Shown here: piece after piece, positions 7,398 to 28,587 of the stretch | Numbering within the stretch: the stretch's first letter is position 1 | Layout of the letters: every line of letters starts with the position of its first letter | Source: Methanococcus vannielii SB | Lineage (GTDB): Archaea; AGJL01; Methanococci; Methanococcales; Methanococcaceae | Direction of reading: 5' to 3' | DNA length: 64,000 nucleotides | NCBI RefSeq assembly: GCF_000017165.1 | Contig: NC_009634.1 | Span: 124,001-188,000, forward strand | Made by a program: the position numbers and the translations under genes | The notes under the pieces: model-generated | Seen by the model: the letters and a program-made list of their open reading frames with translations, nothing else | The model's database searches: none | Told to the model about the DNA's origin: nothing

Positions 7398-7469
7398 TCA
7401 AAAAAATTTCTTCTTAACTTCATGTGTTTAGTTCATTAAAAAAATGTATAAGTATAATCTGGTGAAAAT

Positions 7470-7727
7470 ATGGACGATAAAAAATGCCCGAAATGTGGTG
7501 AATGGACTAGAGAAGACGTTTATTCTTGTGAACACTGTGATCACGATTTTACGACCCAAAACCGAGTAAGGTGTCCAAGGTGTAAATCATATACTGAAGA
7601 TTTCGGTGTTTGTGAAAACTGCGACTATGAATATGAAGATAGCCAGATTTCAGAATATTGTCCAAAATGTAAACGAAAACTTACAAATTCGCACATGTTT
7701 TGTGAACATTGTGGATATCCGTTATAA
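7470..7727 (+). CDS. Zinc-ribbon protein (multiple CxxC pairs)
   Basis: The 85-residue protein is made almost entirely of CxxC knuckles: CPKCGEW, CEHCDHD, CPRCKSY, CENCDYE, CPKCKRK and CEHCGYP. Six pairs would build three zinc ribbons in tandem. ATG at 7470 follows CTGGTGAA. Such proteins usually act as nucleic-acid or protein adaptors; no catalytic domain is attached. It sits inside the phosphoribosyltransferase/dprA island on the same strand, but a separate role cannot be excluded. Confidence 0.8.
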   Translation: MDDKKCPKCGEWTREDVYSCEHCDHDFTTQNRVRCPRCKSYTEDFGVCENCDYEYEDSQISEYCPKCKRKLTNSHMFCEHCGYPL

Positions 7728-7766
7728 TACCGTAAATTTTTAAAAACATTTTAAAGAGGTAAAAAT

Positions 7767-8243: not shown

Positions 8244-8531
8244 TACATCAAACCTAGACAAGGTACCGCTTTTTTCCATACGTATTAAATTTTTTATTTT
8301 AATGTTGAACTTTAGAATATTGCCGGTAATTTATATGGTAAATTTGCATATGTAATTAGATCGGCAAATTAATCAGATGCTTATCGATCCCATTTTTTAT
8401 AATTTATCAATAACACGTCAAATTTCATTTTTTTGCTTTAGATTATTTTTCGACTTTAAAATTATACCTAGATCGGGATTTTGGGAATATATTAACAAAA
8501 AATTTTTAAAAACGTAATTGAGGGGTAATTT

Positions 8532-11460: not shown

Positions 11461-12531
11461 CTAGTGGTGATGTCGTTTGTGGATTTGATTCCGTTTTTTT
11501 TTAGATTCTTCATCAATTTCTTCACTTTCTTCATTTTTCATAGATTCAGAAGGAGGATTCCCACCTCGATTAGATACCCTATGGGCCAGTGCAAGATCCA
11601 TGGCCGTTTTTAAATCTTCTAAAACGACTTCAAGTCTCCCATCAAGTGCTGCAATAGCTTTTGCAGTTTTTATTGTGGTTATTTCTGCACGATGTGTCTT
11701 TATACCTAAATGTATTATCGAATCAATTAATAATTTTAAAAGCTCTTCTGGAACTTTTACATCCTTTAATATCCTTTTTGCAGTCGTTATTGAATATGTT
11801 AGATTTTTTTCTATTTTTGAATATTTTTCATAAAATAAAACAGGGTCGTTTTGAAATTCTTCAACTCTTTTCAAAACTTCAAGTCTATCTTCTGCTTTGA
11901 AAAGTGATTCAATTTCCACATAAAGACCAAATCTATCTAAAAGTTGGGGCCTTAATTCCCCTTCTTCAGGGTTCATGCTTCCAACAAGTACGAACCTTGA
12001 AGGATGTTTAAACGACATTCCTTCCCGTTCTATGGTATTCCAGCCCATTGCTGCAGAATCAAGTAATATATCAATAACATAATCGTCAAGCAAATTAACT
12101 TCATCAATATATAAAATGTTTCTATTTGCATCTGCTAGGATTCCGGGTTGCAGTACTCTTTTTCCTTCATTTAGTGCTTTTTTAATATCTATTGTTCCAA
12201 TAAGCCTATCTACAGTTATACTTAAGGGTAGGTCGACTACTTTCATAGCTTTATCAATTACTTCAAATTTAGTTTCAGCTAATCCTTTGTAACAGTTATC
12301 ACACATTTCAAGGGAATTTCTAGGATTACAATTAAATGGACATTCTAAAACTATTTCATAATTTGGCAATATATAAGAGAGTGACCTTACAAGCGTTGAC
12401 TTTCCAGCACCTTTATCCCCAGTTAAAAGTACTCCACCAATAGATGGATCAACTGCGCAACAAGTTAATGCTTTCTTTGCTTTTTCTTGTCCCACAATAG
12501 CTCCAAATGGGTATATAAATTTCCTAGTCAT
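11461..12531 (-). CDS. ChlI/BchI-like AAA+ ATPase subunit of a metallochelatase
   Basis: The 356-residue zero-frame product is a MoxR/ChlI-type AAA+ ATPase: FGAIVGQEKAKKAL, Walker A GDKGAGKST, Walker B NILYIDEVNLLDD, and VLVGSMNPEEGELRPQLLDRF. It would form the ATP-driven ring that powers a CobN/ChlH-type chelatase. ATG at 12531 overlaps the cobN stop codon by 8 bases and follows AAGGTGAT, so it is coupled to cobN. The last residues (KKKRNQIHKRHHH) come right after the A9 tract. This tail looks like out-of-frame read-through of the linker and is consistent with two products from one gene. Confidence 0.88.
   Translation of the reverse strand: MTRKFIYPFGAIVGQEKAKKALTCCAVDPSIGGVLLTGDKGAGKSTLVRSLSYILPNYEIVLECPFNCNPRNSLEMCDNCYKGLAETKFEVIDKAMKVVDLPLSITVDRLIGTIDIKKALNEGKRVLQPGILADANRNILYIDEVNLLDDYVIDILLDSAAMGWNTIEREGMSFKHPSRFVLVGSMNPEEGELRPQLLDRFGLYVEIESLFKAEDRLEVLKRVEEFQNDPVLFYEKYSKIEKNLTYSITTAKRILKDVKVPEELLKLLIDSIIHLGIKTHRAEITTIKTAKAIAALDGRLEVVLEDLKTAMDLALAHRVSNRGGNPPSESMKNEESEEIDEESKKKRNQIHKRHHH
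11494..11502 (-). other. Slippery A9 tract, probable -1 frameshift site between ChlI and ChlD parts
   Basis: On the coding (minus) strand the sequence is TCT AAA AAA AAA CGG. Staying in frame gives the ChlI-like product ending at 11461. A -1 slip gives KKTESNPQTTSPLDG and continues, open, into the vWA domain. A run of nine A contains the classic A_AAA_AAA heptamer. Programmed -1 frameshifting that yields both small and medium cobaltochelatase subunits from one chlD-type gene has been described in bacteria, which fits. A mutation or sequencing error in the homopolymer is the alternative. Confidence 0.65.
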
Positions 12532-15500
12532 TTTTTATCACCTTACTGCTATTCCAAAGTTTTTCTAGCTGGGATAATGATTCATTCTGTGCATCTTCAT
12601 TAAATGAGCTAGTTATTATCTGTCCACCCTGTAATTCTGATTCTCCATCCATTAATTCCTCCAAATCCGCTTCCAAACTAGAATATGCTTCTTTAAGTTT
12701 TTCAACTGTTTCTTCATTTGCATTCCATAATCCACGTGTTGAAGCTTCAATTAACCTTCTTGCAATTTCTTCACATGCATAAATATTGTTTTCTTTGAAC
12801 CATTCTCTCATTTCTTCATCTAAAACATATTTTTCAGTTATTTCATCAAAAACCCAGTCATTAACCATCTTTGTAGTTGCAGACCACCCGTAAAGATGCT
12901 GAATTTTCTTTGAAAATTCGTTTGCGCCCCCATACCCATGGACTTTCATTTCAGTAACCCATTTAGGATTTAAAATTTTGGATCTTACAATACGCTCAAA
13001 TTCCTTTTCAACAGTTCTAACTTCGGAGTTTGAAAGGTCTTTGGTATCAACAATTACTAGATCAACATCAGAATCGCCTTTTAGTGTTGAAACAGTTGCG
13101 TACATTCCTCCTTGGTAACCGTAGTAACAACAACAGTTCGTAAGGTCGTGTTCATCACTTAAATGGTTAGTAGTTATAATGTCAACAGTTTTTAAATTAG
13201 AAATAAGTGCTTTTGGACTGTATTCGCCGTATGATTTTGACGTATACCGATATGAACTCCACTGCAGCCATACTTTACTTAAATCGTCATCCGAATTCCA
13301 TGCAGATGAATCAACCGCCAAATTTACGCCTGAACCATATGCGCCAGGTGCATTTGCCCATATTCTAGATTTTGCCTCATCTAACAAGTCTTCAGTTATA
13401 TTTTCCCCAAAGTTATTTATGTATTCTAAGTAATGTTTTTTTACGTAATTCATTTCAAGTGGCTCTTCAAGGCTTATTACTTTATTGACGGCATCATCAA
13501 TCATTTTAATGTAGTTTGGAAGAGTATCCCTAGTAATACCACTTATTCTGACGGTTGTATCTATTCTAGGTCGACCTAATTCATTTAATGGAATAACTTC
13601 AACATCTTTTACTGAACCATCCTTATTCCACACAGGTTTTACCCCCATTAAATAAAGGATTTGTGCAATCTGTTCTCCATCGGCCTTGTATGCATCCATA
13701 CTCATTAAAATCTGCCCAACATTTTCAGGGTATCTATCGTGATGTTTTAAGTGGTGTGAAATAAGTTTTTCTGCCGTTTTTACTCCAACTTTCCATGATG
13801 AAGGGGTTGGAAGTGCACTTGGGTCTATCGTATAAAAGTTACGGCCAGTTGGAAGTATTTCTATTTTTCCACGAGTTATGGATCCAGATGGCCCGGGAAG
13901 GATATAATTTGAATTAAATACATCTAATATCCCAGTATATTCTAAAACACACGACTTTATTTTTTTAGAAATTAATATCCCTGTTTCTATTGATTTTAAG
14001 GGTTCTCCATTACTTTTACTACAGTCCTTAAAAATTTGATTTTTAGCGACTTTTTCACTAATTATTTTTAAAATTTTGTTATCTTCAATATCTTCTTCCA
14101 TTAAACTTTCTTTTAAAGTATCTTTAGCTAATTTTGAAATTTCATTAAGTATTTCTTTTGCAGTTAGTCCATTTAAATAGATTTTTGAAGGATTATTTTT
14201 TAATTCGTCATAGTCAAATCCCACGTGTTCTGCAAAAACTCGATTTATTGATTTAAAATTATAATTATCATATTCCATCATTGTTAATACATATTCGGAA
14301 ATTTTTTCAGAGTTTGTTGTTGGATTTCCAAATATATGGAGCCCATTTTCCACTTGGGTTCCAGATATCATGTTTAGGTATCCGTGGAGTTCTTCGATAA
14401 CTTCATCAGATATTTTAGAAACTATTTTAATATTATTTTTTGTTGCCATATTCGTTATTTCTTCGAAGATTATTTCCATTTTTGTGCTGTCTTCTAATGA
14501 CTTTGCTTTCGAATATTCTGCAAGTAATTGTTCTAAATCACCTAAAATTTCAGGCATTGTCATTGGAGGATACATGTGGTCGATAATTGTTGCATAAGAT
14601 CTTCTTTTTGCCATTACTCCTTCCATGGGATTTGCTGAATTATAGATGTAAGCATGCGGAACGTTATCAATTGTAATTTCCGGCCAACATGAAGGAGAAA
14701 GTCCAACTCCTTTTCCAGGCCTAAATTCAAGGTAACCATGAGTTCCAAAGTGTAGTAAAATGTCAGAATCAAAAATTCTTGTCATCCACCGGTATGCTGC
14801 AAGCCACTGGTGCGGGGGCGTTATTAACTGATCATGTAATATTTTGCATGCTTTTCCATCACAAAAGGATCCTGCACATCCGGATTTTGGTTGCGGAGTT
14901 AACAGTATATTCCCAAACATAATTCCTGGAATTATGAATTTATTTTCATGAACCATTCCAATATACTCTCTTGAAACATTTTTAGAAAGTACGTCTTTTG
15001 GATCCATCCAATCATTAAACACTTTAGACCTAACTTTTTCAGGTAGCTCGTCAAGCCAGCTTTTATATGTATCATAATCTACAAATCCAACAGCCCCGCC
15101 TTTTTGAACAATTTCAGAACTTGAAGTCCACCTAAATTCATTAACTGCTTTTTTAGATAGCATTAAATCCATCAAATCCTGTCCCGTTTCAGGTATATAA
15201 TTTCCAACATTATATCCTTCTTCTTTTAATTTTTTAAGTAGTCTTACAATACTTTCAGGAACATCTAATCCAAAACCAACCGCAAGTGATGCTTCTGAAC
15301 CATGACACGGAGGATTAATTAATACTATTGAAATTTTCTTTTCGTAATTTGATTTTTTTGATAAGTTTACCCATTTTTTAATCCTGCTTGAAATATATTC
15401 TGAATGCTCTTTAAAGGGTTCATAATGTTTAACGCCATTTTCATCAAGGTTACTTCCAACTAAAAAAATAGGTTCGATAGTTCCATCTACTTCAGGCATT

Positions 15501-16399
15501 ACTACTTGATAAATTTGAGACATTGGATCTATCCCTTGAGGATTTTCTGCCCATTCTTCAATACTGGATCTAAATGAATGAATAATTTGTATTACTGGCA
15601 CATTTAGCTTTTTTAATAGTTCTACCCCTGAAACATCTTTAAATCTAATTTTTACATCTTCAATACCTGAAGAATGATCCAACATAAAAAAGAATGTTGA
15701 ATTAACTAATGCACTTATTATTGGATAACCTTCCCTAAAAAAATATTTTTGAATTGTTTCTTCAGCAGTTAATGAATCATATTCTTTAATTTTTAACCTA
15801 TTTGTAAAAACAGGAATTACGCCTAAACCCTGTTTTTCAATTGATTCAATTAATGAATGAATATGATCCATACTTTGACTTATCCAAAATGATCTGTGGA
15901 AAAGTATGCCTACAAAATCTTTTTCTGCCCCATATTCTTTCAAATAATCCCCTAAGTTTTCAAAAGTTCCGTGTTCATGATGCCATATTCCTTGCCAAAG
16001 GGTATTTTCGGGTTCATCTATATCTAAATTAAACCCTGTAAAATTTAATAGTAGTTTAACAAGTTGTTCAATGTTTTTTTGGCCGCCCATGCTGTAATAC
16101 ATCATCACTTTTGAAAATTGTGAATTTGCACCCCTTGAAAGCTGAACATTTGCTTCTGAACCTGAAATTACTATTTTTGCTTTTGATTTTTCAATAGCAT
16201 TTTTTAAGCTTTCGTCAATGGTTGAGGAATAAATAAATAAAACGTCAGAATCTTTAATAAAATCAATATTTAAATCTTGATTTTCACTATTTGCTAGTAA
16301 ACATTCAAAGGAATTATTAAATTGTAGTTTTTCAACCGCGTTTGAAAATTGAGGTAATGTTAGTGCGCCATAACCTAACAAAATAGATATTTTAGCCAT
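12524..16399 (-). CDS. cobN: CobN/ChlH-family metallochelatase large subunit
   Basis: The 1291-residue protein is a CobN/BchH-family large subunit, which binds the tetrapyrrole and catalyses metal insertion with an AAA+ ring. Typical blocks are LLHFGTHGYLEFRPGKGVGLS, YIYNSANPMEGVMAKRRSY, ILPTGRNFYTIDPSALPTPS and WLQWSSYRYTSKSYG. ATG at 16399 follows GAGGAATA. The chlI/chlD partner overlaps its 3' end. Methanogens are known to insert cobalt and nickel into sirohydrochlorin with small CbiX/CfbA-type chelatases, so this enzyme probably has another job. Its location beside an importer recalls HmuS, a CobN-like protein that removes iron from haem in Bacteroidetes. Corrinoid, haem or another tetrapyrrole are all possible substrates. 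Confidence 0.9.
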   Translation of the reverse strand: MAKISILLGYGALTLPQFSNAVEKLQFNNSFECLLANSENQDLNIDFIKDSDVLFIYSSTIDESLKNAIEKSKAKIVISGSEANVQLSRGANSQFSKVMMYYSMGGQKNIEQLVKLLLNFTGFNLDIDEPENTLWQGIWHHEHGTFENLGDYLKEYGAEKDFVGILFHRSFWISQSMDHIHSLIESIEKQGLGVIPVFTNRLKIKEYDSLTAEETIQKYFFREGYPIISALVNSTFFFMLDHSSGIEDVKIRFKDVSGVELLKKLNVPVIQIIHSFRSSIEEWAENPQGIDPMSQIYQVVMPEVDGTIEPIFLVGSNLDENGVKHYEPFKEHSEYISSRIKKWVNLSKKSNYEKKISIVLINPPCHGSEASLAVGFGLDVPESIVRLLKKLKEEGYNVGNYIPETGQDLMDLMLSKKAVNEFRWTSSSEIVQKGGAVGFVDYDTYKSWLDELPEKVRSKVFNDWMDPKDVLSKNVSREYIGMVHENKFIIPGIMFGNILLTPQPKSGCAGSFCDGKACKILHDQLITPPHQWLAAYRWMTRIFDSDILLHFGTHGYLEFRPGKGVGLSPSCWPEITIDNVPHAYIYNSANPMEGVMAKRRSYATIIDHMYPPMTMPEILGDLEQLLAEYSKAKSLEDSTKMEIIFEEITNMATKNNIKIVSKISDEVIEELHGYLNMISGTQVENGLHIFGNPTTNSEKISEYVLTMMEYDNYNFKSINRVFAEHVGFDYDELKNNPSKIYLNGLTAKEILNEISKLAKDTLKESLMEEDIEDNKILKIISEKVAKNQIFKDCSKSNGEPLKSIETGILISKKIKSCVLEYTGILDVFNSNYILPGPSGSITRGKIEILPTGRNFYTIDPSALPTPSSWKVGVKTAEKLISHHLKHHDRYPENVGQILMSMDAYKADGEQIAQILYLMGVKPVWNKDGSVKDVEVIPLNELGRPRIDTTVRISGITRDTLPNYIKMIDDAVNKVISLEEPLEMNYVKKHYLEYINNFGENITEDLLDEAKSRIWANAPGAYGSGVNLAVDSSAWNSDDDLSKVWLQWSSYRYTSKSYGEYSPKALISNLKTVDIITTNHLSDEHDLTNCCCYYGYQGGMYATVSTLKGDSDVDLVIVDTKDLSNSEVRTVEKEFERIVRSKILNPKWVTEMKVHGYGGANEFSKKIQHLYGWSATTKMVNDWVFDEITEKYVLDEEMREWFKENNIYACEEIARRLIEASTRGLWNANEETVEKLKEAYSSLEADLEELMDGESELQGGQIITSSFNEDAQNESLSQLEKLWNSSKVIKND

Positions 16400-16652: not shown

Positions 16653-17607
16653 TTATATCAAAAATATAATGGCACCGATTATTAAAATATCTAATAGTAA
16701 GGTAATTACTGCATTTATCATGACAATTTTAGTACCTAATTTTGGGCCAAATAGTGAAACATGTAACGGTAATGAATGTTTTGCATACCGTGTTGAAAGA
16801 GAAAGTACGTTTGCAAAAATCAGCCCAACAATTACTTCTTTAGAATTTAAAACCCCTTCTTTTAAAAGATTACTACTCATAATCATTGCAGCTTGTACGT
16901 TAAAAAGACAAGTCATTATTAAGATACCTACATTGGGGTCAAGATTAAAAAATCGTGTGAAAGGCGAAATTAATACTGATACATGATCAAAAACTCCGTT
17001 TTTTGAAAGAAAAATTACAATAAAGGTAGTAATTGCCATTAGTATAATAATCCTTTTTGAAACTTTTAATGTACTTTTTAACGATTTTTTTAAGTTATCG
17101 GATATTTTTGATACATTATCACTTTTTGGTTCAAAGTCTACTTTTTTAGACACCATTGATAGGTAAATAATGCCTATGATAGTTTTAATTAGTGCTACGC
17201 CTGATCTAATTAAAATATATACTACGCCAGTTAACCCGAGGAGTGGTATCGTTATAGGTATAAAAAACGTAAATGTATGTGAAAATATGGGATGGAAATG
17301 AATTTGCAAGAGAACTGCCTATTAATTCCTTTTCAGTTATCTTTTTTTCAGTATATCCTTCTGCAAGAATGGAATAACCCACCGTGGGGCTAAAAAAACA
17401 AGAAAGTATAGAATATAATGAAAGTTGGTTCATTTTTAATTTTTTTGTAACAGGATATAAAAAATTACTTAATTTTTTCATTACTCCTGAATTTATAAAA
17501 TAATTCATTATAAACATAGTAGTTATAATCAAAAAAGACATGTTTACTGTGAATTTAATTGATTCCAAAACTGAATCGATAATAAGTATATAATCTATAG
17601 TAATCAT
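16653..17607 (-). pseudogene. Gate-domain (nucleoside-recognition type) membrane protein, split by a frameshift
   Basis: Two overlapping frames together encode one membrane protein. The first runs from ATG 17607 (behind GGGTGA) to 17206; it carries a Gate-like block, FINSGVMKKLSNFLYPVTK and SPTVGYSILAEGY, and reads LANSFPSHIF before going out of frame. The second, down to 16653, resumes with IFSHTFTFFIPITIPLLG and holds a second Gate-like block. Removing one base near 17285-17300 joins them into about 317 residues with some eight membrane segments. Relatives are Gate-domain transporters related to FeoB and spore-maturation proteins. It lies between cobN and the ABC importer. A real mutation, a +1 recoding site or a sequencing error are all possible; alternatively two half-proteins are made. 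Confidence 0.65.
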
Positions 17608-17757
17608 TTGTTCACCCAATATACTATAAAATAATAAAAAAAATAATATCCTATTACTATTTAAAACAAACATGATAATTTATGATACATATATAACAAA
17701 TCTTAGTTTAAAATAATACTATCAAAAAGTTTTGAATGATTAAAGGATTGTGATAAA

Positions 17758-18888
17758 ATGTTAAAAACAGAAAATTTAACTGTAGGCTATAATAATTATA
17801 CTGTAGTTGAAAATGCAAACTTAGAGATACGGGAAAGGGAGATACTATGTATTATCGGTCCAAATGGAGTTGGTAAGTCAACACTTTTAAAAACGATTGC
17901 AACATATCTAAATCCAAAAAAAGGGGCAGTGTACCTAAATTCTAAAAAAATACATGACTTAAAACCAAAAGACCTCGCAAAAGAAATGGCGGTAGTATTA
18001 ACTGAACGCGTAAATCCTGGAAACATGACTGGATTTGATATAATTGGAATTGGTAGGCATCCTTATACTGATCTTTTTGGAAGCCTAACTGAAAATGATA
18101 AAAAAATTATTGTAAATTCTGCAAAATCGGTAAATGCAGAATATCTACTTAAAAAAAACTTTTTTGAAATGAGTGACGGGGAAAAACAGAAAATAATGAT
18201 TGCACGGGCTATTGCACAAGAACCAAATGTTTTGATACTTGACGAACCAACAAGTTTTTTAGATGCACGGCATAAAATTGAACTAACGCTTCTTTTAAGA
18301 AAACTCGCTACTGATAAAAATATTGCTATAATAGTAACGCTTCACGATATTGAACTAGGTTTAAGAATTGCTGATAAAATGGCACTCATAAAGGACCATA
18401 AAATAATTGCATACGGTTATCCTGAAAATATAATGGATAAAAATACGGTAAATACATTATATGGGTTAACTAGTGCCAATTATAGTAATTTGCTTGGTTA
18501 CTTTGAATTAAAAAACGAATTTAAAAAAGAATATAAAAAAAAAGTGTTTGTGGTTTGCGGAGGCGGTACTGGAACAGGTTTATTAAGATATCTTGTGAAA
18601 AACGGTTATGAAATTATAGTTGGAGTATTACATAAAAATGACATTGACTATGCTGTTGCAGAGTCCATGGAATTAAATGTTATTTTTGAATTGCCCTATA
18701 CTAAAATATCCTTTGAAAAACTAAACAGTGCAGTAAATGAACTAAAAAATATTGATATATTAATCCATACTGACTTTGCAGTTGGCGAAATAAATCTTTT
18801 AAATTTAGAAATAATTACGGAGGCTAAAAAATTAGGTAAGCAGATTATTTCGTTTAATGGAAATATTGAATGCTTAAACAATCTATAA
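17758..18888 (+). CDS. FecCD-type ABC importer ATP-binding protein with C-terminal extension
   Basis: Residues 1-250 are an ABC ATPase: Walker A GPNGVGKST (34-42), signature FEMSDGEKQK, Walker B VLILDEPTSFLD and switch TLHD. This resembles BtuD/FhuC-type subunits of corrinoid, haem or siderophore importers. A further 115 residues (from KKKVFVVCGGGTGTGLLRYL) form an extra alpha/beta domain with a glycine-rich, nucleotide-binding-like loop; its role is unknown. It is transcribed toward the permease genes, the opposite direction to the rest of the importer, so it has its own promoter. The upstream region holds an actatcaa half-site like that before the binding-protein gene. Confidence 0.87.
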   Translation: MLKTENLTVGYNNYTVVENANLEIREREILCIIGPNGVGKSTLLKTIATYLNPKKGAVYLNSKKIHDLKPKDLAKEMAVVLTERVNPGNMTGFDIIGIGRHPYTDLFGSLTENDKKIIVNSAKSVNAEYLLKKNFFEMSDGEKQKIMIARAIAQEPNVLILDEPTSFLDARHKIELTLLLRKLATDKNIAIIVTLHDIELGLRIADKMALIKDHKIIAYGYPENIMDKNTVNTLYGLTSANYSNLLGYFELKNEFKKEYKKKVFVVCGGGTGTGLLRYLVKNGYEIIVGVLHKNDIDYAVAESMELNVIFELPYTKISFEKLNSAVNELKNIDILIHTDFAVGEINLLNLEIITEAKKLGKQIISFNGNIECLNNL

Positions 18889-18915
18889 TTAAACTTTTGA
18901 TAAACTTTTTCTTCT

Positions 18916-19971
18916 TTAGTTTGTAAGCTTTACCTTTTCCCTTGAAACTACTAAATATACAACAAGAACCCCTCCAACAATACTTAAAATACTTCCAATC
19001 GGAAGCATTATTGGAGGCCTATTTAAACCCAATAAATAGTTAAACGGTAAAGTGTATTTTATAGAGATTATATGGCATGAAAGCATTAAAAAAACACCCG
19101 CAAGAAGTGTCGTTGGCATAAGCCACTTATGGTCTGATGTTTTTATAAGTGGTCGTGCCATAAATGGAGCTATGACTCCTACAAATGTTATCATCCCTAC
19201 AAAGGGTATTATTGACCCTACAATAAACCCAGTTGATACTAAAATTAGCAATCTTATTTGTTTTATATTTAGCCCAAAACTTTTTGCATATTGTTCTCCA
19301 AAAAGTAACGCATTTAATGGTTTTATAAGTAGTATTGCAGCAGTTAAGAATACCATTGTGCAAGAAGCAATTAATAAAATGTTTTCAGGCCGAACCCCCA
19401 TTAAACTGCCAAGCGTAAAAAAATAGTAGTTCATTATACTATGTCCTTCCGCATTTGCAATTAAGTATGATCTAACTCCCCCAAGTAAATAGCTCATTAA
19501 CAAGGATACTATTATAATATCATTTACATCTTTAACAATTGATGCAATTATAATTAGTAAAATTATGGAAACTAATCCGCCAATCCAACCTGCAACCAAT
19601 AATTCATTGTTGAAACTAGAAAATATATTTGAAAACCCTTCTAAAAAAATTGTAAATGCGGCAAATAGTAAAACCCCGCTTGTCATTCCTGTTGTATATG
19701 GGGATGCAAGGAAATTCCTAAATAGTGTTTGAAGCATCAGTCCACATAATGATAGTCCAATCCCTACAAAAATTGCAGTTAAGATGGGAGGTAGTCTAAC
19801 ATTGCCAATTATACTATCTTTAGTATCATCCCCTGTAGTTCCATTGATTAGATATTCAGTTACGTCATTAATGCTAATCGACTTTGCATTTCCGCCAAAG
19901 TATATTCCGGTAATAATAAGCCCGATATTTATTATAACTAATGCCAATATTATAACGAATCTCTTTTTCAT
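18916..19971 (-). CDS. FecCD-family ABC importer permease (second)
   Basis: The 351-residue membrane protein has about ten hydrophobic segments and FecCD/BtuC family blocks: RLPPILTAIFVGIGLSLCGLMLQTLFRNFLASP near the start, and IIPFVGMITFVGVIAPFMAR, the cytoplasmic loop that contacts the ATPase. It follows the first permease with a 27-bp gap. Two different permeases suggest a heterodimeric channel like FepD/FepG rather than a BtuC homodimer. It converges with the ATPase gene; only 27 bp separate their ends. Confidence 0.87.
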   Translation of the reverse strand: MKKRFVIILALVIINIGLIITGIYFGGNAKSISINDVTEYLINGTTGDDTKDSIIGNVRLPPILTAIFVGIGLSLCGLMLQTLFRNFLASPYTTGMTSGVLLFAAFTIFLEGFSNIFSSFNNELLVAGWIGGLVSIILLIIIASIVKDVNDIIIVSLLMSYLLGGVRSYLIANAEGHSIMNYYFFTLGSLMGVRPENILLIASCTMVFLTAAILLIKPLNALLFGEQYAKSFGLNIKQIRLLILVSTGFIVGSIIPFVGMITFVGVIAPFMARPLIKTSDHKWLMPTTLLAGVFLMLSCHIISIKYTLPFNYLLGLNRPPIMLPIGSILSIVGGVLVVYLVVSREKVKLTN

Positions 19972-19998
19972 ATTTTCGCCTAAGTTACATAGTGTGTG

Positions 19999-21054
19999 TT
20001 AAATTTTATGATTTCTACTCTTAAAGAATAGTAAAAGGGAAATTGGTGCACCAATTAAAGACAATGGAGCATGTAATGGAAGAGGCACTGTTGAAGTAAA
20101 TAGTACGCCAGGTCTTGCTAATATATCTGCAAAAATTAGAAAAGTAATCCCTAACAATGCAGTAATTGGAAATACATAGATGTGTTTTGAAGTATTGAGT
20201 ATTCCTCTTGCAATTATTGGACAAATTATTCCAATAAATGATATGGGGCCAGTAAACGCAACAACCGTTGATGTTAATATACAAGAAAGTAAAATTAAAA
20301 GCCTTTTAAATTTCTTTAAATCAACGCCCACACTAGCAGCATAGCTTTCCCCTATTAAATTTGCATCCAAACTTTTTGAAAGTAGGATGTATGTTAGAAA
20401 GATAAACGGCAAAATAACTACAGCCATAACTTTTAGCTGATCCCATGTTAAACTCTGTACGCTGCCCATCCCCCAAGTAAGATATCCTGAAATTCCTGAA
20501 CCTTCTGTATCGATGTAATTTCCTGTTGTTACAATTACGTCTGAAAGCCCTGAAACAGCACCGCTTATCATCATACCGCATATTAAAAGGGTCGATATCT
20601 GTTTAACTTTTTTTGAAATGCCTATAACTAAAAGCATAGTAATTATGGAACCAATATATGCCATAACTATTCTGATAAGTATTGAATTTGATATTCCAAT
20701 ATGTAATAATACTGAAGTAAACATGTAAATTGCAATACCTAGTCCTGCACCACTTGATACCCCCATAAAATAAGGATCAGCTAATGGATTTCTAAAATAA
20801 CCTTGCATTAAAAGTCCAGAGATTGAAACTGCCGCCCCGACTAAAAAACATCCAATTACTCGGGTTAGTCTTAAATCCTTAATTATCTTATCAACCCCCG
20901 AATTTCCCGTAGTTCCGTTTAGTACATAGTCTTTTAATTCATTACTACTAACGGGTACACTTCCTTCTAAAATACTAAAATACGATAAAATACCAATTAA
21001 AACAAAGCATACGACTAAAACTACTGAAAAGTTTTTAAAACTCACTAAACTCAC
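19999..21054 (-). CDS. FecCD-family ABC importer permease (first)
   Basis: The 351-residue protein has the FecCD signature [19 protein letters not shown] and [19 protein letters not shown], and the coupling loop [20 protein letters not shown]. About ten membrane segments are visible. It lies between the binding-protein gene and the second permease on the minus strand. Its partner is probably the next gene; they share only moderate similarity. Likely substrate, from the cluster, is a metal-tetrapyrrole or metal chelate. Confidence 0.87.
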
Positions 21055-21148
21055 CTTAATGTAAATATTAAAATTTTAAAAAAAGTAGGAAATAATAGTA
21101 TATATACATGATATATTTTAATATCAATCGTATTTACACGATATTAAA

Positions 21149-22417
21149 TTATGGTTGGATTTTATTGTGGTGTGCTAAATTTGAATCCCCGCCAGAAAAC
21201 AAGGTCGGCTGAACCATTCTAGCAAAATCTTCCATATATCGTTTAGGGTCTTTCATTTCTTGGATAAAGTAGTCCCTATTTGAAGTATAAAATCTACCAT
21301 TTTGATATGCCTTAAAGTTTGCAAAATCAGGATTGAATGCAAGTAATTCTTCTTTTGTTTTTATTTCATTGCCGGTAAATACCCTCATTATGACTACATC
21401 TGCAGTCATTGCTCGTTCATAAAATGTTTCTTTATCTATGGTATTTGAACTTGAGCCGGGAATGTCATTAAATACGTATTCTCCACCAAATTCGTTAACC
21501 ATTCTACTATTGTAATTTTGAGCACCTTGAACTGTTGCAGTATTTCTTGCAGTAGACCATGAGAAACTTACAACTGTTGGATAATCGTTAGCTTTTGAAG
21601 TAGTTCTTAATAATTCATTTCTTTTTCTCCAAGTATCTTGGAAATAGTCTTCTATCTCGTCTGAGTTTTCTTCACCAAAGAATGCTGCTGCAAATTTTGT
21701 CCATTCAGTTCTACCCATGAATGTTGGTTCTTGATAGGTAAATACCCTACTTGGTAAAATGTTTAATTCTTTTAGTTTATTTTCCATGTCATCATGTTGA
21801 ACCCATTCTCCTAAAAATACGATATCTGGATTAGATGCAACAACTTTATCATAGTCCATTGCCGATGCAGAACCTATTCCTAGTATTTCTCCTTGATTAT
21901 ATCTAGTTTCTATTTTAGAAGAATATTTTGCGTAAGAATTTGTAATCCCTTTAAATGAATCATATATTTCGTCTTTATCGAGTATATCCGCAGTTGACAT
22001 TAATGGTGCATAGAATATCGTTGATATTCTAGTTAATGGAACACTTAAAACCGTTGTACCGGAAATCTTCGGATCGCTTGCACCTTCTTTTAATAGTACA
22101 AACTTATTTCCAGTAGAATCTACTACATAACTGTAACCTTCATCCCATTTTGGTTCCATTTCAAAGTTTTCTGCAAAAACAACTGGACTTCTAAACTTAT
22201 CATAATTTCTAAATAAATAAACTACGTCTGCAACGTTTACATTTCCGTCACAATTTAAGTCTCCAACATCAATTGGAACGTTTCTATTTTTAAATAAATA
22301 AACTACGTCTGCAATATTTATGTTTCCATCACCATTCACGTCCCCAATTTTTTGGGCGGATGTGGATGGTAAAAGAGCTAACATTGCGAGTACTAATAGT
22401 ACTACTATCTTTTTCAA
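21149..22417 (-). CDS. ABC importer substrate-binding protein with N-terminal dockerin domain
   Basis: TTG at 22417 follows AGGTGGT. The 422-residue product has a signal peptide (KKIVVLLVLAMLALLPSTSA), then two dockerin calcium repeats, IGDVNGDGNINIADVVYLF and VGDLNCDGNVNVADVVYLF, within residues 24-70, then a Peripla_BP_2 domain of the BtuF/FepB class (PDIVFLGEW, FSWSTARNTATVQGA, RFYTSNRDYF). Dockerins bind cohesin domains; four cohesin-type proteins are encoded right beside it. The dockerin therefore probably fixes this binding protein to a surface scaffold instead of a lipid anchor. The first permease follows after about 95 bp. An inverted repeat lies over its promoter. Confidence 0.9.
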   Translation of the reverse strand: MKKIVVLLVLAMLALLPSTSAQKIGDVNGDGNINIADVVYLFKNRNVPIDVGDLNCDGNVNVADVVYLFRNYDKFRSPVVFAENFEMEPKWDEGYSYVVDSTGNKFVLLKEGASDPKISGTTVLSVPLTRISTIFYAPLMSTADILDKDEIYDSFKGITNSYAKYSSKIETRYNQGEILGIGSASAMDYDKVVASNPDIVFLGEWVQHDDMENKLKELNILPSRVFTYQEPTFMGRTEWTKFAAAFFGEENSDEIEDYFQDTWRKRNELLRTTSKANDYPTVVSFSWSTARNTATVQGAQNYNSRMVNEFGGEYVFNDIPGSSSNTIDKETFYERAMTADVVIMRVFTGNEIKTKEELLAFNPDFANFKAYQNGRFYTSNRDYFIQEMKDPKRYMEDFARMVQPTLFSGGDSNLAHHNKIQP

Positions 22418-22467
22418 AATACCACCTTTGTAATAATAATTTTTAAAATATATTATAAAATAGTATA

Positions 22468-22481
22468 ACTATCAAGATAGT
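22468..22481 (-). promoter_or_regulatory. Inverted repeat ACTATCAAGATAGT over the importer promoter
   Basis: ACTATC-AA-GATAGT is a perfect inverted repeat 51 bases upstream of the binding-protein start. Read on the minus strand, a TATA-like element (aattttatatac, 22482-22493) lies directly upstream, so the repeat covers the space between TATA box and transcript start, typical of a repressor site. A MarR-type regulator gene lies in the same locus and is a candidate binder. Confidence 0.5.
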
Positions 22482-22557
22482 ATATAAAATTTATTATAAA
22501 ACAAAAAAAAGTAATACTAATAAAAAATAATACCCGTAGTTATGACTGAATTTTATT

Positions 22558-24645
22558 TTATTTTATTTTAGAGTTCACAAAAGTAAGTCCTGTAAATACT
22601 CCTAAAATTGATGCAAAGCAGTAGTAAATTATTGAAAATCCTGAATCAGAAAAACTTTGCTCAATTACCTGATTTTCAACCTTTTTCACTTTATTTACCT
22701 TTAAAAGTATATTACTCCCTTCAATGTCAACAATTTCTGTTGAATTTATAATTTTTGGCGGATCTATAAATTCAATTTTTTCTGTAAAGTCCCATTGGTA
22801 ATATCCAATTGCAATATCTTTATTACCTAAGGATACTGGAGGATAGTACCGCACATTCCATTTTATTTCAGTAGTTTTTGAAACATCTAACTTTAAGTTA
22901 ACCGTTTTATTTTCTTGGCTATTTAATTCGATATTATATCTTGGACTATTGGGGCTTCCAGTTCCAGTAAATTCAATATATACGCTTACTGGATATGTAA
23001 ATGGGTTTGTTAAACTCATGTTTAAAACTATTGTTTCATTTTCACCCGATTTAAGAGTTTTAAATGATCTGTTAGATACCTCATAGGTGATTGGATTAAT
23101 GTTTAAAATTTCGATTATTCCTTTTGCAGTATAACTTGCATTTAATGGGTCAGTGACTTTACACGAAACAAGGTACATGGAGTAGTCAGGATATTTTTGA
23201 GAAGACTTTTCCCTAGTTGAATTTTTTCCATTTCCAAATTCCCAATAGTATTTCAAACTATCTAAATCATCATCTTCATCATGACTTATTGCTTGGAAAT
23301 TTACTTCATTATTATTGTGTATTGTGTAATATATTCTAGTTACTGGCGGAATATTTTTACGCCTTTCAATAACACTTATAGTTAATTCTTTAAATTTAGG
23401 TAAAATTTCAGTTTCATTTGAGTATACGGTAATATTTCCAACATGAACTTTTGAAGAAGTATTTTCATTTGTCTTTGGAGTCACCCTAAACTCCAGTAAA
23501 CTAAATGTATTTGTTGTCGTTTGTTCTTTTAGAGAAATGTTAAAATAAAGATAACTCTCATTTACGTAAATATTAGGATTATTTGATTTTGACCTATTCA
23601 ACTTTGAATAAACTTCTGAAACTTCGGGTATTTTATAGTCTAAGATTTCGAAAATTGAATCATTAATAAAAATATATCCTGAAATATCGGTAAGGTTTTC
23701 TTTGAAGTTATTTGCTCTTAATCTAATTGTTTTGGAATTACCTATCGTCGTATCCATTTTTTCAGTATATTTCCCATCAACATAAAACATAAATCCATCA
23801 AAAGTATCTTGATTCTCATCTTGCTTTTTTTCATTTACTGAAAAATTATCTAAAAGAATATCATTTACATAAACTTTTGGAGTTATTCTATAATCATCGT
23901 TCTTTACAGTTATTGGAAGAGTTAATAAATTAATAAATGTTTCATTTTCATAAATTGAATTTGGAATCATGAAAAATGAAAGATTATTATCCCTAACTTC
24001 GTAATTAAATTTTGAACATAATATATTTGGAACAGGATTATCCATAATAGATATGTTTTCAAAGTAAATATTTCCAGATATATTTTTTAAAGGGGTTTTA
24101 ACACCTTTTATTGATATTTTAGAATTTATTTTTTTATTTGTTTCGTAATTAATTAAGTCAATTTCAGTAACTGTGTACCCTAAGGGAGATAATTTAACTT
24201 TTAAATTACTCAAAGTCATATTATTGTACGTAAAACCGTTAGAATCAGAAACAGTAGTCCCCAGTAATTCAATAGTGGAATTACCTTCTTTTAATACGTT
24301 AAATTTTATTTTTGCAATATTTATATCGCCAGTTGGAGGAGTTGAAAACCATACAATACTAATCCTACCATTTGACAAAGATACGTCCCCAATATCGGAA
24401 TTTAAATCTTTTGATAGGGTAATACTTGATAGTTGTAATTGAGTTTTATCGTAAGATATCCGTGTTTCAAAGCCACCACATTTTTTATCTGAGGGAATAT
24501 TTAAAAGATTTAATTCTAAATCAAAAGATTCACCAATAAAAAAAGAATCAGAACTAGAGTTTAATACTACTGAAATTTCCTCTGAAAACGTCTGGGGCAC
24601 AATGCAAAAGATCAATGCTATAAAAACTAAGGTTTTTATTTTCAT
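22558..24645 (-). CDS. Large surface protein with cohesin-like and PKD domains and C-terminal membrane anchor
   Basis: The 695-residue protein has a signal peptide (TLVFIALIFCIVPQTFS), a cohesin-like domain at about 24-155 (FFIGESFDLELNLLNIP, GGFETRISYDKTQLQLSSI, FNVLKEGNSTIELLGTTVSD), a second strand-rich cohesin-like region at about 310-430, a PKD-like domain at about 437-520 (FQAISHDEDDDLDSLKYYWEF) and a C-terminal membrane helix (YYCFASILGVFTGLTFV) with a short basic tail. It should sit on the cell face with the domains outward. It is last in a three-gene operon; its ATG overlaps the previous stop by four bases. It may bind the dockerin of the importer protein or the ligand. Confidence 0.82.
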   Translation of the reverse strand: MKIKTLVFIALIFCIVPQTFSEEISVVLNSSSDSFFIGESFDLELNLLNIPSDKKCGGFETRISYDKTQLQLSSITLSKDLNSDIGDVSLSNGRISIVWFSTPPTGDINIAKIKFNVLKEGNSTIELLGTTVSDSNGFTYNNMTLSNLKVKLSPLGYTVTEIDLINYETNKKINSKISIKGVKTPLKNISGNIYFENISIMDNPVPNILCSKFNYEVRDNNLSFFMIPNSIYENETFINLLTLPITVKNDDYRITPKVYVNDILLDNFSVNEKKQDENQDTFDGFMFYVDGKYTEKMDTTIGNSKTIRLRANNFKENLTDISGYIFINDSIFEILDYKIPEVSEVYSKLNRSKSNNPNIYVNESYLYFNISLKEQTTTNTFSLLEFRVTPKTNENTSSKVHVGNITVYSNETEILPKFKELTISVIERRKNIPPVTRIYYTIHNNNEVNFQAISHDEDDDLDSLKYYWEFGNGKNSTREKSSQKYPDYSMYLVSCKVTDPLNASYTAKGIIEILNINPITYEVSNRSFKTLKSGENETIVLNMSLTNPFTYPVSVYIEFTGTGSPNSPRYNIELNSQENKTVNLKLDVSKTTEIKWNVRYYPPVSLGNKDIAIGYYQWDFTEKIEFIDPPKIINSTEIVDIEGSNILLKVNKVKKVENQVIEQSFSDSGFSIIYYCFASILGVFTGLTFVNSKIK

Positions 24646-25505
24646 AATGTCTTCCCCTTAAATATTGAACCAAATACTGCCCCAGAAATAATGCTACCAA
24701 AAAATATAGATAATAATAAAAAAGGATTTATTGAACCATTATTTTTAACTATTATGGTTATATTTGGGGATATTTCCTCAATATATACTTCTTTTATAAT
24801 TATTTCCGGTTCTTTTTGATTTGGTATAACTTGAATATTGTAAACTACATTTGAACCGGAACTAGATGCTATTTTTGAATCATCAAACGTATCTTCTAAC
24901 TTTGTACTTCCCCCATACTCTTTTACCCCATTTATGATTATTTCTGAACCTTTAAATTCCGTATCAGGATATATTAAACGTGTAGTTCCTGTTTTAGTAT
25001 TTGCTATTCGGGATATCTTACTATATCCATATCCTAAGTCTGAACTGGTAGTTCCGGATAAACTAAGTTCGGTATTTGATTCTTTTTTAGGGCTAAATAC
25101 AATAGTTCCAATAAAAACTGAATCTTCATACCGTGTTTCATCAAAAGTAATTGAAAGGTAAAAATTACCATTTTCAAATTTGAATTCTTTCCACTTTTCA
25201 TTTTTACAATTTTCGCTCCAATTAAACTCGATAGGTTGCAAATTTTCTGTGGAAAAGTCGATATGAACATCTAATGCTCCAAGGCCTCCATCTAACTCTT
25301 CATCAATTACGGTTGAACCATCCATTCCACTATATATTCCCCCCTTTTGAGGGATATTTTCAACACTGATATTAAAATATAATAATTCCCCGTTAGTTTC
25401 GATTGTATTTGGGTCAATCTTTAAAATAAGATTATCTAATGCAAAATTTTGACTAAATATTGCAAAAATAAAAAAAAATAATGTTAAAATAGTAATTAGT
25501 TTCAT
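24642..25505 (-). CDS. Surface protein with one cohesin-like domain and C-terminal membrane anchor
   Basis: The 287-residue protein has an N-terminal signal peptide (ILTLFFFIFAIFSQNFA), a cohesin-like domain at about 24-165 (LYFNISVENIPQKGG, GALDVHIDFSTENLQPIEF, IGTIVFSPKKESNTELSLSG) and a C-terminal helix (PFLLLSIFFGSIISGAVFGSIF) before a basic tail. The strand pattern matches the start of its two neighbours. It overlaps the downstream gene by four bases and abuts the upstream one, so the three are one operon. It is membrane-anchored and faces outward. Ligand unknown. Confidence 0.8.
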   Translation of the reverse strand: MKLITILTLFFFIFAIFSQNFALDNLILKIDPNTIETNGELLYFNISVENIPQKGGIYSGMDGSTVIDEELDGGLGALDVHIDFSTENLQPIEFNWSENCKNEKWKEFKFENGNFYLSITFDETRYEDSVFIGTIVFSPKKESNTELSLSGTTSSDLGYGYSKISRIANTKTGTTRLIYPDTEFKGSEIIINGVKEYGGSTKLEDTFDDSKIASSSGSNVVYNIQVIPNQKEPEIIIKEVYIEEISPNITIIVKNNGSINPFLLLSIFFGSIISGAVFGSIFKGKTL

Positions 25506-26066
25506 TTAACCACCGAAAAAGAAACTTAAAATGTAGTTTATGAACCTTGATATTGCATTTTCAGATTTTGAGTCTTCAGAATTTAAATTTCCAGAAACAG
25601 TTATTTCTTTTGAGACCTGAGTTATTGGTACCTCATTACCTTCAGTATCTGCACCTGTTGACTTAAAATTTAACTGAAATGTCCCAGGATGAAGAGTCTT
25701 TACTTTTACAGTTAAAATATGGTGGTTTCCAGTTATGGGTTCCTCAGTTAAAATAAACCAGTTTTTTACACTCGATTTAGTATATTTTGTTTCATAAAAC
25801 TGGCCTGCAAGCGTACGTAATTCAGCATTGTCTGTCACAGAAATTATTTCATATTTATCTCGACTATTGGATGGAATACTAAACTCGAATTCAAATCCAG
25901 ATAACTCTTTTTTACTATTCAAACTGATTAAAATGTCAAATTCATCGCCTAAACTAACTTCTTTTGGCATTTGTACATCTAAAACTGTAATATCCGCAGG
26001 AGAAGCTGCAAAAGATATTTGAATAAGTATCAAAGACATTATTACTGTTAAAAGTATTTTTTTCAT
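25506..26066 (-). CDS. Small surface protein with one cohesin-like domain
   Basis: The 186-residue protein has a signal peptide (ILLTVIMSLILIQISFA), a single cohesin-like domain at about 24-160 (VSLGDEFDILISLNSKKELSGFEF, ILTVKVKTLHPGTFQLNFKS) and a short hydrophobic end, FINYILSFFFGG, that may attach to the membrane. It is the first gene of the three-gene cohesin operon and starts 230 bp from the divergent 763-residue protein, with which it may share control. Confidence 0.8.
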   Translation of the reverse strand: MKKILLTVIMSLILIQISFAASPADITVLDVQMPKEVSLGDEFDILISLNSKKELSGFEFEFSIPSNSRDKYEIISVTDNAELRTLAGQFYETKYTKSSVKNWFILTEEPITGNHHILTVKVKTLHPGTFQLNFKSTGADTEGNEVPITQVSKEITVSGNLNSEDSKSENAISRFINYILSFFFGG

Positions 26067-26295
26067 TGTCTTCCTCGATTTTTTATTTTTGGATAATTTA
26101 TTGGATGGTATTTAAATTACTACTTATTTAAAATTTAACTTATGCTTTATGCCATAAAATATAAATAGTAATCCTTTGTAATATCAAAAATGGTTTTATT
26201 AATAATAAGTATATAAAATAAACGGTAGGGTAAGACTATGTCAAAATTAAAAAATTAGCCCTATTGATCTAACCTATAAATAATTTTTAAAAAAG
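26067..26295. promoter_or_regulatory. Divergent promoter region between cohesin-protein genes
   Basis: This 229-bp gap separates two divergently transcribed surface-protein genes. It is AT-rich with TATA-like elements in both directions (for example aaaatataaatag near 26155-26167 and aagtatataaaataa near 26208-26222). No perfect operator-like repeat stood out. Shared control of both transcripts from here is likely. Confidence 0.4.
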
Positions 26296-26304
26296 GTGAT
26301 TTAT

Positions 26305-28587
26305 TTGAAATGGAAGATTTTAATGCTTTCAATAATGGCCTTACTAGTTATAAATTCCTGTTTTGCGGCCAGTATTGAACTAAGTCCTAATGTAATCAAT
26401 ATTCAAAAGGGTAATAATTTTACCGTAGACGTGCTATTAAGAGATATACCCGAAATAGCAGGATATGACAGTAAACTAAATTATGATAAAACTATCTTAA
26501 AATTAAATAGTATTTCATTAAGTACTGATGTAAATAGTGCAAGTTTAAAAGATACGAATCTTAATAATGACGGTTCTGTATCACTATTATGGATGGGTAA
26601 CTCAGTTACTGGAAATTTAACTGTTGCTACATTTACATTTGAAGCAATTAATGAAGGAGATACTAAAATATCATTAAAAAATGCAGCACTATCTGATATT
26701 GAGGGTCAGGGAATTAATAATTTTGATACTTTAGATTCGGAAGTGTTGGTATTTGAACCAAAACCTGATTTATCGATTCAAAATGTAACTGTAGTAAAAT
26801 CTAATGCTTATGAAAAAAATAATATTTCCATTATTATTAAAAATATCGGCCAGTTAGATGCAGTGGGATTTAATGTTTCATTAGAAATTTCCGGAATTTT
26901 TGAATCAAAATATATTAAGACAGTAGAGTTATTACCAAATAATTCAGATGCTGAATTAATTTTTGAAGACGTACTTCTTGGACCAAATAACCAGATTAGT
27001 GTTCATATAGATCCTGAAAACAATATTATTGAACATAAAAAAGAAAATAACCAGATTACATTTAATGAAAAACCTTTGGAAAGGCATATTTCTATGATAC
27101 TGAATTCAAATATACATCCAGTAAATACTGGAGAAACATTTGAAGTTACAGTTTCACTAAATAATTTAACTAAAAACAGACCTGCAAAAGCAGTTGATGG
27201 AATTTTAAAATTTGATTCAAATGTTTTAGAGTGTTTAAACTTTACTTTCGAACTAGTTCCTTCTGAAGCTGAAGGTTCATACTTAGAAAATATAACCATA
27301 TCAAAGAAAGATGTTAAATTCAGTATAGTTGATGGGGAAATAAAAGGGGATACCGTAATTGCAAAAGCAACGTTTAAAGCACTAACTGTTGGAAATTCAA
27401 ACATCAGTTTAGAAAGCATTGTAGTATCTGACGTAGAAGGATACGAATTTAATAAAATGGATGTTAAATATAACTACATTATGTACAAATTTTTAAATGA
27501 TTCCAAAAACATTGTAATTGAAGAAAGTTTATTTAATAAAATTAATAAAACCAAAGAAATTTCAAATAATGGATCAGATATTAACATGACCGAAATATTT
27601 TTTGGAAATGATAGTTTAGTCATTCCTATAGTAAACAGTCATGTACATAAAATAAACCAGGAACTTTTTGAAAAAATTGAAGATATACTAAATAATGCAA
27701 ACGATCTTAAAAAGACTAAAATAAATAATGAAAGTGAAATGAGCAGTAGGTTAAATAAAACATTGGAAGGTTCACAAGAGATCTTAAATAGTGGATTTAA
27801 TGTCTCTAACATGGGTTACGATATTAAAAAAGATGGAAATATACTAAAATCAAGATTAACATTTAATGCAGTAAATACGACTAATAAGTCCGTATTAATA
27901 ATGAGGTTCCCAATTGGAAACCTAAATTTAGATGAAATTATTGTAGATACTGGAACTGAAAATGTTACTTTATTAGAAAATGAGTTTTCAAGTACAGTAG
28001 GTTGGTATAGAATTCCTAGTGAAGGAGTTTTAGAAATAACTTTAGTAAAAGACCCATTGGTTACAATAAAACTTTCATCAGTTCTTCCGTCGACAGATTC
28101 TCCATCAAGTACTAATCGTAGAAGAAGTAGTAGTCAAAGTGTAACTACTATTGATCAGACAGAAATCTCTAAAAACGTAATAAGTTCAATAAAGTCAGAA
28201 AAAATTAAACAAATTCTTTCAAACGCTAAAGTAGTAGCTGGAAATACAGTTGACCATAATTATGCAGCAAATTTACGAACTGATTCAATTATTACAACAG
28301 TATCTGAATTAAATCAAGATACAGTAATTGTTGGAGGACCATTGGCAAATCCATACGCTAAAATGTATGATAATAAATTTGACTTAAAAATAACTAATGA
28401 TTATCCTGGAGAAAATAAAGGAGTAATTCAAGTTAAAGAAATTAATGGATACATGGTAATTTATATTGCAGGTTCAGATAGATTTGGAACACTTGCAGCA
28501 TTAGAATATTTTAAAACATTAGATGAATTACCTGAAAAACCATTAATTATAGAATGGACTAGTACTGGATCAAAATTAATAAAGTAA
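26305..28587 (+). CDS. Scaffold-like surface protein: two cohesin-like domains, CARDB-like domain, S-layer-type C-terminus
   Basis: TTG at 26305 (KWKILMLSIMALLVINS...) follows AAAGGTGAT; the frame is open slightly upstream to 26296. After the signal peptide come a cohesin-like domain (about 28-150, GYDSKLNYDKTILKLNSIS), a CARDB-like domain (about 155-250, DLSIQNVTVVKSNA, IIKNIGQLDAVGFNV), a second cohesin-like domain (about 260-395), a long linker with a serine/arginine-rich part, and a C-terminal domain of about 120 residues: DTVIVGGPLANPYAK, YPGENKGVIQV and IYIAGSDRFGTLAAL. The last blocks match the C-terminal domain of methanococcal S-layer proteins, so the protein probably inserts into or on the S-layer. 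With two cohesins and an anchor it looks like a small archaeal scaffoldin for the dockerin-bearing binding protein. Confidence 0.85.
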   Translation: MKWKILMLSIMALLVINSCFAASIELSPNVINIQKGNNFTVDVLLRDIPEIAGYDSKLNYDKTILKLNSISLSTDVNSASLKDTNLNNDGSVSLLWMGNSVTGNLTVATFTFEAINEGDTKISLKNAALSDIEGQGINNFDTLDSEVLVFEPKPDLSIQNVTVVKSNAYEKNNISIIIKNIGQLDAVGFNVSLEISGIFESKYIKTVELLPNNSDAELIFEDVLLGPNNQISVHIDPENNIIEHKKENNQITFNEKPLERHISMILNSNIHPVNTGETFEVTVSLNNLTKNRPAKAVDGILKFDSNVLECLNFTFELVPSEAEGSYLENITISKKDVKFSIVDGEIKGDTVIAKATFKALTVGNSNISLESIVVSDVEGYEFNKMDVKYNYIMYKFLNDSKNIVIEESLFNKINKTKEISNNGSDINMTEIFFGNDSLVIPIVNSHVHKINQELFEKIEDILNNANDLKKTKINNESEMSSRLNKTLEGSQEILNSGFNVSNMGYDIKKDGNILKSRLTFNAVNTTNKSVLIMRFPIGNLNLDEIIVDTGTENVTLLENEFSSTVGWYRIPSEGVLEITLVKDPLVTIKLSSVLPSTDSPSSTNRRRSSSQSVTTIDQTEISKNVISSIKSEKIKQILSNAKVVAGNTVDHNYAANLRTDSIITTVSELNQDTVIVGGPLANPYAKMYDNKFDLKITNDYPGENKGVIQVKEINGYMVIYIAGSDRFGTLAALEYFKTLDELPEKPLIIEWTSTGSKLIK

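Follow-up and report, generated by a model that had tools for sequence, protein, structure and literature searches.

Dockerin-cohesin pairing as a probable substitute for the lipid anchor of an ABC-importer binding protein in Methanococcales

Dockerins bind cohesins, and this pairing builds the bacterial cellulosomes. In archaea, binding proteins of importers are as a norm anchored by a lipobox. Cohesins and dockerins outside of cellulosomes were called functionally unclear (PMC5244752, PMC9012536). For Archaeoglobus, archaeal cohesin-dockerin binding and a non-cellulosomal use were reported, and the archaea surveyed in the same work had no multi-cohesin scaffoldins, according to the account of Peer et al. 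(2009) given in PMC9012536. Moreover, common dockerin proteins in anaerobic methanotrophic (ANME) archaea are binding proteins of ATP-binding cassette (ABC) transporters of the NikA/OppA and TroA types (Chadwick et al., 2022, PMC9012536). Here, we analyzed a window of 64,000 nucleotides (G000:C1:124001-188000) of Methanococcus vannielii SB, whose genome is a single contig of 1,720,048 bp. The region 16653-28587 of this window encodes a FecCD/BtuC-type importer together with secreted cohesin proteins and a substrate-binding protein carrying a dockerin, and its conservation was followed in a sample of 36 Methanococcales genomes. As judged from the comparison of sequences, it is quite likely that the dockerin-cohesin pairing replaces the membrane (lipid) anchor of the binding protein.

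The binding protein is translated from a TTG start, has a class I signal peptide (N-terminus MKKIVVLLVLAMLALLPSTSAQKIGDVNGDG) and is built in the order signal peptide, dockerin (GDVNGDGNINIADVVYLFKNRNVPIDVGDLNCDGNVNVADVVYLFRNYDKFRSP) and Peripla_BP_2 domain. Its N-terminus shows no lipobox, which is missing from the dockerin-bearing homologs as well, and hydropathy analysis revealed no membrane segment besides the signal peptide. Pfam Dockerin_1 matched residues 25-68 with E=0.0028, which is below the Pfam cut-off for the protein alone, and in a six-frame search the dockerin reached 23.8 bits, above the cut-off once in-frame neighbours count. The two F-hand repeats of about 22 residues each carry the full DxNxDGxxxxxD calcium motif, which is kept in an alignment of 37 dockerins across Methanococcales, and a profile of these 37 dockerins matches solved cellulosomal dockerins (5lxv_B, 1.5e-5; 2y3n_B, 2e-5; 1ohz_B). 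By repeats and motif the domain is a type I-like dockerin, for which cohesin binding is predicted. An earlier note on this DNA had placed a two-repeat dockerin right behind the signal peptide of an ABC binding protein, and motif, Dockerin_1 and profile matches bear this out. The six-frame search of the 1.72 Mb genome yielded no second dockerin, so that the binding protein is its sole dockerin protein. The proposal of that note, a role in the capture of nutrients and not in the holding of enzymes, is likewise supported. When public genome contigs were scanned with the dockerin profile, matches were obtained in records of Methanothermococcus, Methanocaldococcus and Methanocaldococcaceae, in one archaeal metagenome-assembled genome and, weakly, once in Zixibacteria.

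The cohesins are found in four neighbouring secreted proteins, here designated C186, C287, C695 and C763, of which C763 has two (Table 1). C695 and C763 are assigned by Pfam (two cohesins in C763, 1.1e-15). C186 and C287 gave no cohesin match in Pfam, and a sequence search of the PDB with their profiles returned nothing useful; they are assigned by family profile and structure. Their cohesins reached 98.7% (C186) and 98.1% (C287) in hhalign, and the predicted structures, with a pLDDT of 85 and 74, respectively, have solved cohesins as top Foldseek matches (1.7e-9 and 2.9e-8), among them the Archaeoglobus cohesin 2xdh. A profile of 39 local cohesins matches solved scaffoldin cohesins (4.7e-12) and, applied to the genome, detects five cohesins in total, all of them at this locus, confirming the count given in the earlier note. 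C695 (C-terminal hydropathy 1.93) and C287 keep a hydrophobic, transmembrane-type C-terminus across the complete orthologs examined, and the C-terminal helix of C186 is, by hydropathy, a true transmembrane helix in the orthologs of Methanocaldococcaceae. C763 shows no transmembrane helix in hydropathy analysis. Its methanococcal S-layer-type C-terminus, already noticed before, was recovered as a PF05124 match, and S_layer_N, the domain of structural S-layer subunits, is not among its Pfam hits, C763 being at most S-layer-associated. As PF05124 matches six further places in the genome, it represents a general surface domain of the organism.

All genes noted earlier are present at their positions. 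On the minus strand the order is C186, C287, C695, binding protein and the two permeases (26066 down to 18916); C763 is divergent from C186 with a gap of 229 bp, and the ATPase gene is convergent with the permease genes. Within the 1.72 Mb genome, the single dockerin protein and the five cohesins fall together inside 6.4 kb, which is not chance. Within the region only 16653-17673 plays no part in the assembly. There, two Gate-domain open reading frames (ORFs) on the minus strand represent one gene broken by a frame change near 17,230-17,300, so that either a pseudogene or an error in the sequence is conceivable; the gene is intact in G004 (L062:8662-9618) and in L113 (311-318 residues).

Among the 36 genomes, dockerin binding proteins are present in 25 and cohesins likewise in 25; 24 have both and ten have neither (Fisher p=4.6e-7, ignoring phylogeny). 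The exceptions are G004 with a dockerin only and G020, a genome of 64% completeness, with a cohesin only. Synteny across the order was observed for the C186-C287-C695 cassette together with C763 and one or two dockerin binding proteins, the cassette itself being conserved from Methanococcus to Methanocaldococcaceae. The co-occurrence survey of relatives suggested earlier thus revealed a conserved neighbourhood in addition to the joint presence of both partners. Most genomes encode two paralogs of the dockerin binding protein, A with about 422-448 and B with about 454 residues, whereas the window genome has A only. A third, distant paralog was seen in three genomes on the Methanocaldococcus side (L119:9452-10453, L120:9817-10797, L128:600-1574); it has neither signal peptide nor dockerin or lipobox and is possibly cytoplasmic.

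The reading of the dockerin as an anchor is best supported by its exchange for a lipobox. Five genomes devoid of cohesins (G024, G027, G028, G029 and G033) still encode both paralogs, and between the signal peptide and the binding domain all ten proteins have a lipobox (FAGC, LSGC, LPGC, MSGC or IAGC) at the position of the dockerin and then a short linker. In trees computed from the binding domain only, these lipobox proteins branch from within the dockerin proteins for either paralog (100/99 and 100/100), showing that two paralogs switched the anchor in the same cohesin-less lineage. Moreover, a lipobox is present in all four remaining PF01497 binding proteins of the window genome. That the dockerin serves as anchor would be the best explanation for these data, and the exchange within one order comes close to a natural control experiment.

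Table 1. Positions of the importer, dockerin and cohesin genes and of the chelatase genes nearby, given as window coordinates.
Feature	Position	Strand	Evidence
Substrate-binding protein, BtuF/FhuD class, Peripla_BP_2, 422 aa	21149..22417	-	Pfam PF01497 1.6e-17
Two-repeat dockerin, GDVNGDGNINIADVVYLFKNRNVPIDVGDLNCDGNVNVADVVYLFRNYDKFRSP	22184..22345	-	Dockerin_1; 37-member profile matching PDB dockerins
C695: secreted; one cohesin, PKD domain, C-terminal transmembrane helix	22558..24645	-	Cohesin 3.1e-8, PKD 5.6e-7 (Pfam)
Cohesin of C695	24220..24579	-	Pfam, domain scan, family profile
C287: secreted; one divergent cohesin, C-terminal transmembrane helix	24642..25505	-	family profile 3.2e-6
Cohesin of C287	25038..25391	-	family profile (G000:C1:149038-149391)
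C186: small, secreted; one divergent cohesin, C-terminal amphipathic or short hydrophobic helix	25506..26066	-	family profile 5.8e-5
Cohesin of C186	25653..25964	-	family profile (G000:C1:149653-149964)
C763: secreted, scaffoldin-like; cohesin, CARDB, cohesin, S-layer-type C-terminal domain	26296..28587	+	Pfam, domain scan
Cohesin 1 of C763	26362..26715	+	Pfam, domain scan, family profile
Cohesin 2 of C763	27082..27450	+	Pfam, domain scan, family profile
S_layer_C-type domain of C763, residues 627-737	28174..28506	+	PF05124 2.7e-8
FecCD/BtuC-type permease	19999..21054	-	PF01032 8.7e-60; nearest NCBIfam BtuC, below cut-off
FecCD/BtuC-type permease, second subunit	18916..19971	-	PF01032 5.8e-55
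ABC ATPase with C-terminal extension	17758..18888	+	PF00005 4e-28; nearest NCBIfam corrinoid ATPase PRK09536, below cut-off
CobN/ChlH-type chelatase large subunit (context)	12524..16399	-	PF02514 E=0
ChlI-type AAA+ chelatase subunit (context)	11461..12531	-	PF01078 3.5e-14
VWA (ChlD-like) protein (context)	10610..11428	-	PF13519 1e-12

With its two FecCD permeases and its ATPase, both as noted earlier, and the Peripla_BP_2 binding protein, the transport system belongs to the FecCD/BtuC-type importers. As judged by gene neighbourhood, the importer most likely takes up a metal-tetrapyrrole or some other metal complex, which would then be handled by the CobN-type chelatase: a CobN-type gene is found within 20 kb of a binding protein in 20 of 29 genomes, compared to about 2.5 expected by random placement (phylogeny ignored). 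An import of tetrapyrroles followed by insertion or removal of the metal is plausible. Iron removal from heme was shown for the homolog HmuS, and what the archaeal HmuS/CobN/ChlH homologs do was called unclear (both PMC12583661), so that the linkage described here offers a handle on these chelatases. Alternatively, the importer might carry free iron-siderophore-like or other metal chelates and no tetrapyrroles, with a separate role of CobN. This could well be the case, with our judgement tilting a little to the other side: transporters of the FecCD kind are used for B12 as well as for siderophores and citrate-iron, none of the NCBIfam substrate models matched at its cut-off, and in 9 of the 29 genomes CobN lies on another contig or at a distance above 20 kb. 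However, the strong linkage in the other genomes and the nearest models, i.e., a corrinoid transporter ATPase and BtuC as the best NCBIfam matches, argue for a tetrapyrrole. The genomes G001 and G003, which belong to the same genus and have neither this binding protein nor cohesins, contain CobN-type ORFs of 1660-2128 residues, far longer than elsewhere. Upstream, at 3863-10194, an OLD-like AAA ATPase, two weak PRTase-CE-like proteins, a weak match to a MULE transposase and a DprA-like gene are clustered in a possible conflict or mobile-element region.

Further evidence for a shared binding partner comes from the dockerins of the two paralogs. In 13 genomes carrying both A and B, the identity of the A and B dockerins is 81.1% within a genome and 70.1% between genomes (permutation p=1e-5), whereas the binding domains are no more alike within a genome than between genomes (33.8% versus 33.6%, p=0.30). 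It might be argued that the dockerins match due to neutral gene conversion between linked genes and not due to a shared partner, and in G008, G013 and G031 the two dockerins differ by just 1-2 synonymous differences, indicating recent conversion; in these genomes the match could be a copying artefact rather than a result of selection. As a general explanation we regard conversion as unlikely, since it would have to end at the domain border though the binding domains are equally linked, and since the dockerins of G009 and G023 match at 81% despite synonymous differences in 18-20 of 43 codons. Cellulosomal dockerins show symmetric dual-mode binding. Of 34 distinct dockerins, 30 (19 expected) have the same residue in their two repeats at position 11 of the calcium loop, a position contacting the cohesin in cellulosomal dockerins, and this sameness would fit a symmetric dual-mode binding of cohesins.

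Taken together, we infer the following mechanism. The binding protein would be secreted in a soluble, unlipidated form and dock onto cohesins in a calcium-dependent manner. C287 and C695 would be fixed in the membrane beside the importer by their C-terminal helix, and C186 probably as well by its short C-terminal helix, while C763 with its two cohesins and the S-layer-type domain might hold the binding protein farther out. The docked binding protein would capture its ligand and pass it on to the FecCD/BtuC-type permease pair. The earlier note had suggested that the dockerin ties the binding protein to an S-layer-bound scaffold. The pairing with the neighbouring cohesin proteins stands, supported by co-occurrence, gene order, the lipobox/dockerin exchange and the matched dockerins within genomes; the scaffold is not simply S-layer-bound, as transmembrane helices terminate two of the four cohesin proteins and a short helix terminates C186, leaving C763 as the one S-layer-type protein among them. 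G026 and G030 have a minimal set consisting of two dockerin binding proteins and C186 as single, transmembrane cohesin protein, and C763 is absent. This suggests that membrane tethering is the core function and that the S-layer-type protein provides a second station. Tentatively, and at a probability clearly below even, the two stations might form a relay, in which S-layer-type multi-cohesin proteins on the outside hold several copies of dockerin binding proteins that reversibly exchange to membrane cohesins by the permease, so that one cohesin set would serve several binding proteins in the salvage of metal-tetrapyrroles through CobN. In relatives, its clients perhaps include other nutrient-getting proteins. 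If true, such a relay would uncouple the capture surface from the transport rate.

A different view is that a broader S-layer display scaffold holds enzymes as well, the dockerin binding protein being just one of its clients and nutrient capture being secondary. Relatives with secreted alkaline phosphatases and a TED-domain protein bearing C-terminal dockerins speak in its favour, as do C763 orthologs in which up to four clear cohesins are combined with the S-layer-type domain. In the window genome, however, no dockerin protein besides the binding protein was found, the cassette adjoins the importer genes, and G026 and G030 lack C763 yet have two dockerin binding proteins, which makes a general display scaffold improbable as the primary role. 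The phosphatases are encoded in cohesin-bearing Methanococcales (L073:8033-9553, L077:7965-9485, L084:15296-16819, L090:7877-9361) and are a possible second nutrient-getting client; the TED protein (L083:9144-14399, 1751 residues) combines PKD, CARDB and a complement-type TED (alpha-2-macroglobulin) domain with the dockerin. Finally, it is very improbable that dockerin and cohesins no longer bind each other, surviving as relics or as folds stabilised by calcium, and that the binding protein is a freely released scavenger: cohesin folds do occur in proteins having other roles and G004 has a dockerin without any cohesin, but the calcium motifs are conserved in the 37 dockerins across the order, cohesin absence goes along with dockerin absence and lipobox presence in two paralogs, and a released protein would not need the lipobox that replaces the dockerin in the sister genomes.

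Several observations weigh against a dockerin-based anchor serving metal-complex import. The dockerin binding protein of G004 looks intact and no cohesin was detectable in this genome, showing that a dockerin can be kept without cohesins for some time at least. Since the lipobox proteins of each paralog fall into a single clade, the statistics on co-occurrence and swap rest on few independent events. To these the converted dockerins of three genomes and the distant CobN genes described above have to be added, and the substrate is assigned from the neighbourhood only. G004, a single-contig genome, has no CobN either, and no matching permeases were found in the 20 kb containing its dockerin binding protein (L062, G004:C1:430001-450000). 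Another adjacent pair was observed in a more distant archaeon (L094:9816-11254, G058), where a small cohesin protein comes immediately after a small dockerin protein.

The earlier note knew of no described system of this design. This was too strong, as dockerin-bearing binding proteins were already reported for ANME archaea (PMC9012536). In the open-licence literature searched, we found no description of a dedicated cohesin set linked to importer genes, of multi-cohesin S-layer-type proteins in Methanococcales or of a dockerin/lipobox exchange. If the anchor function holds, it would assign a specific and testable job to non-cellulosomal cohesins and dockerins, i.e., standing in for the lipid anchor of an importer binding protein.

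With the bacterial cellulosome the locus shares dockerin and cohesin modules that are homologous by profile and fold as well as a multi-cohesin surface protein. However, the client is the binding protein of an ABC importer, the sole client in the genome, and not a glycoside hydrolase; no glycoside hydrolase with a dockerin is encoded in the genome, and the two-cohesin protein C763 has no carbohydrate-binding module among its Pfam matches. Furthermore, the dockerin is N-terminal and several cohesin proteins end in the membrane. The non-cellulosomal cohesin and dockerin proteins of Archaeoglobus fulgidus have in common with this locus the archaeal cohesin fold (2xdh) and the non-cellulosic setting, whereas C763 and its orthologs carry two to four clear cohesins, and client and transporter are defined here. 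Compared to BtuCDF and FhuBCD, the importer has the same Peripla_BP_2 binding protein, two FecCD permeases and an ATPase, but its binding protein has no lipobox or other covalent anchor. The adjacent CobN-type large subunit and the ChlI and VWA partners in the window resemble the HmuS/CobN/ChlH superfamily (PMC12583661); in contrast to the superfamily as described there, the chelatase is linked to an importer. In the ANME archaea, dockerins are likewise fused to periplasmic binding proteins, and cohesin as well as S-layer/dockerin proteins are present. There, NikA/OppA and TroA types are found among many dockerin proteins with unassigned partners, whereas here a binding protein of the BtuF/FhuD class is accompanied by dedicated cohesins, permeases and an ATPase, and the exchange of lipobox and dockerin is documented in sister genomes.

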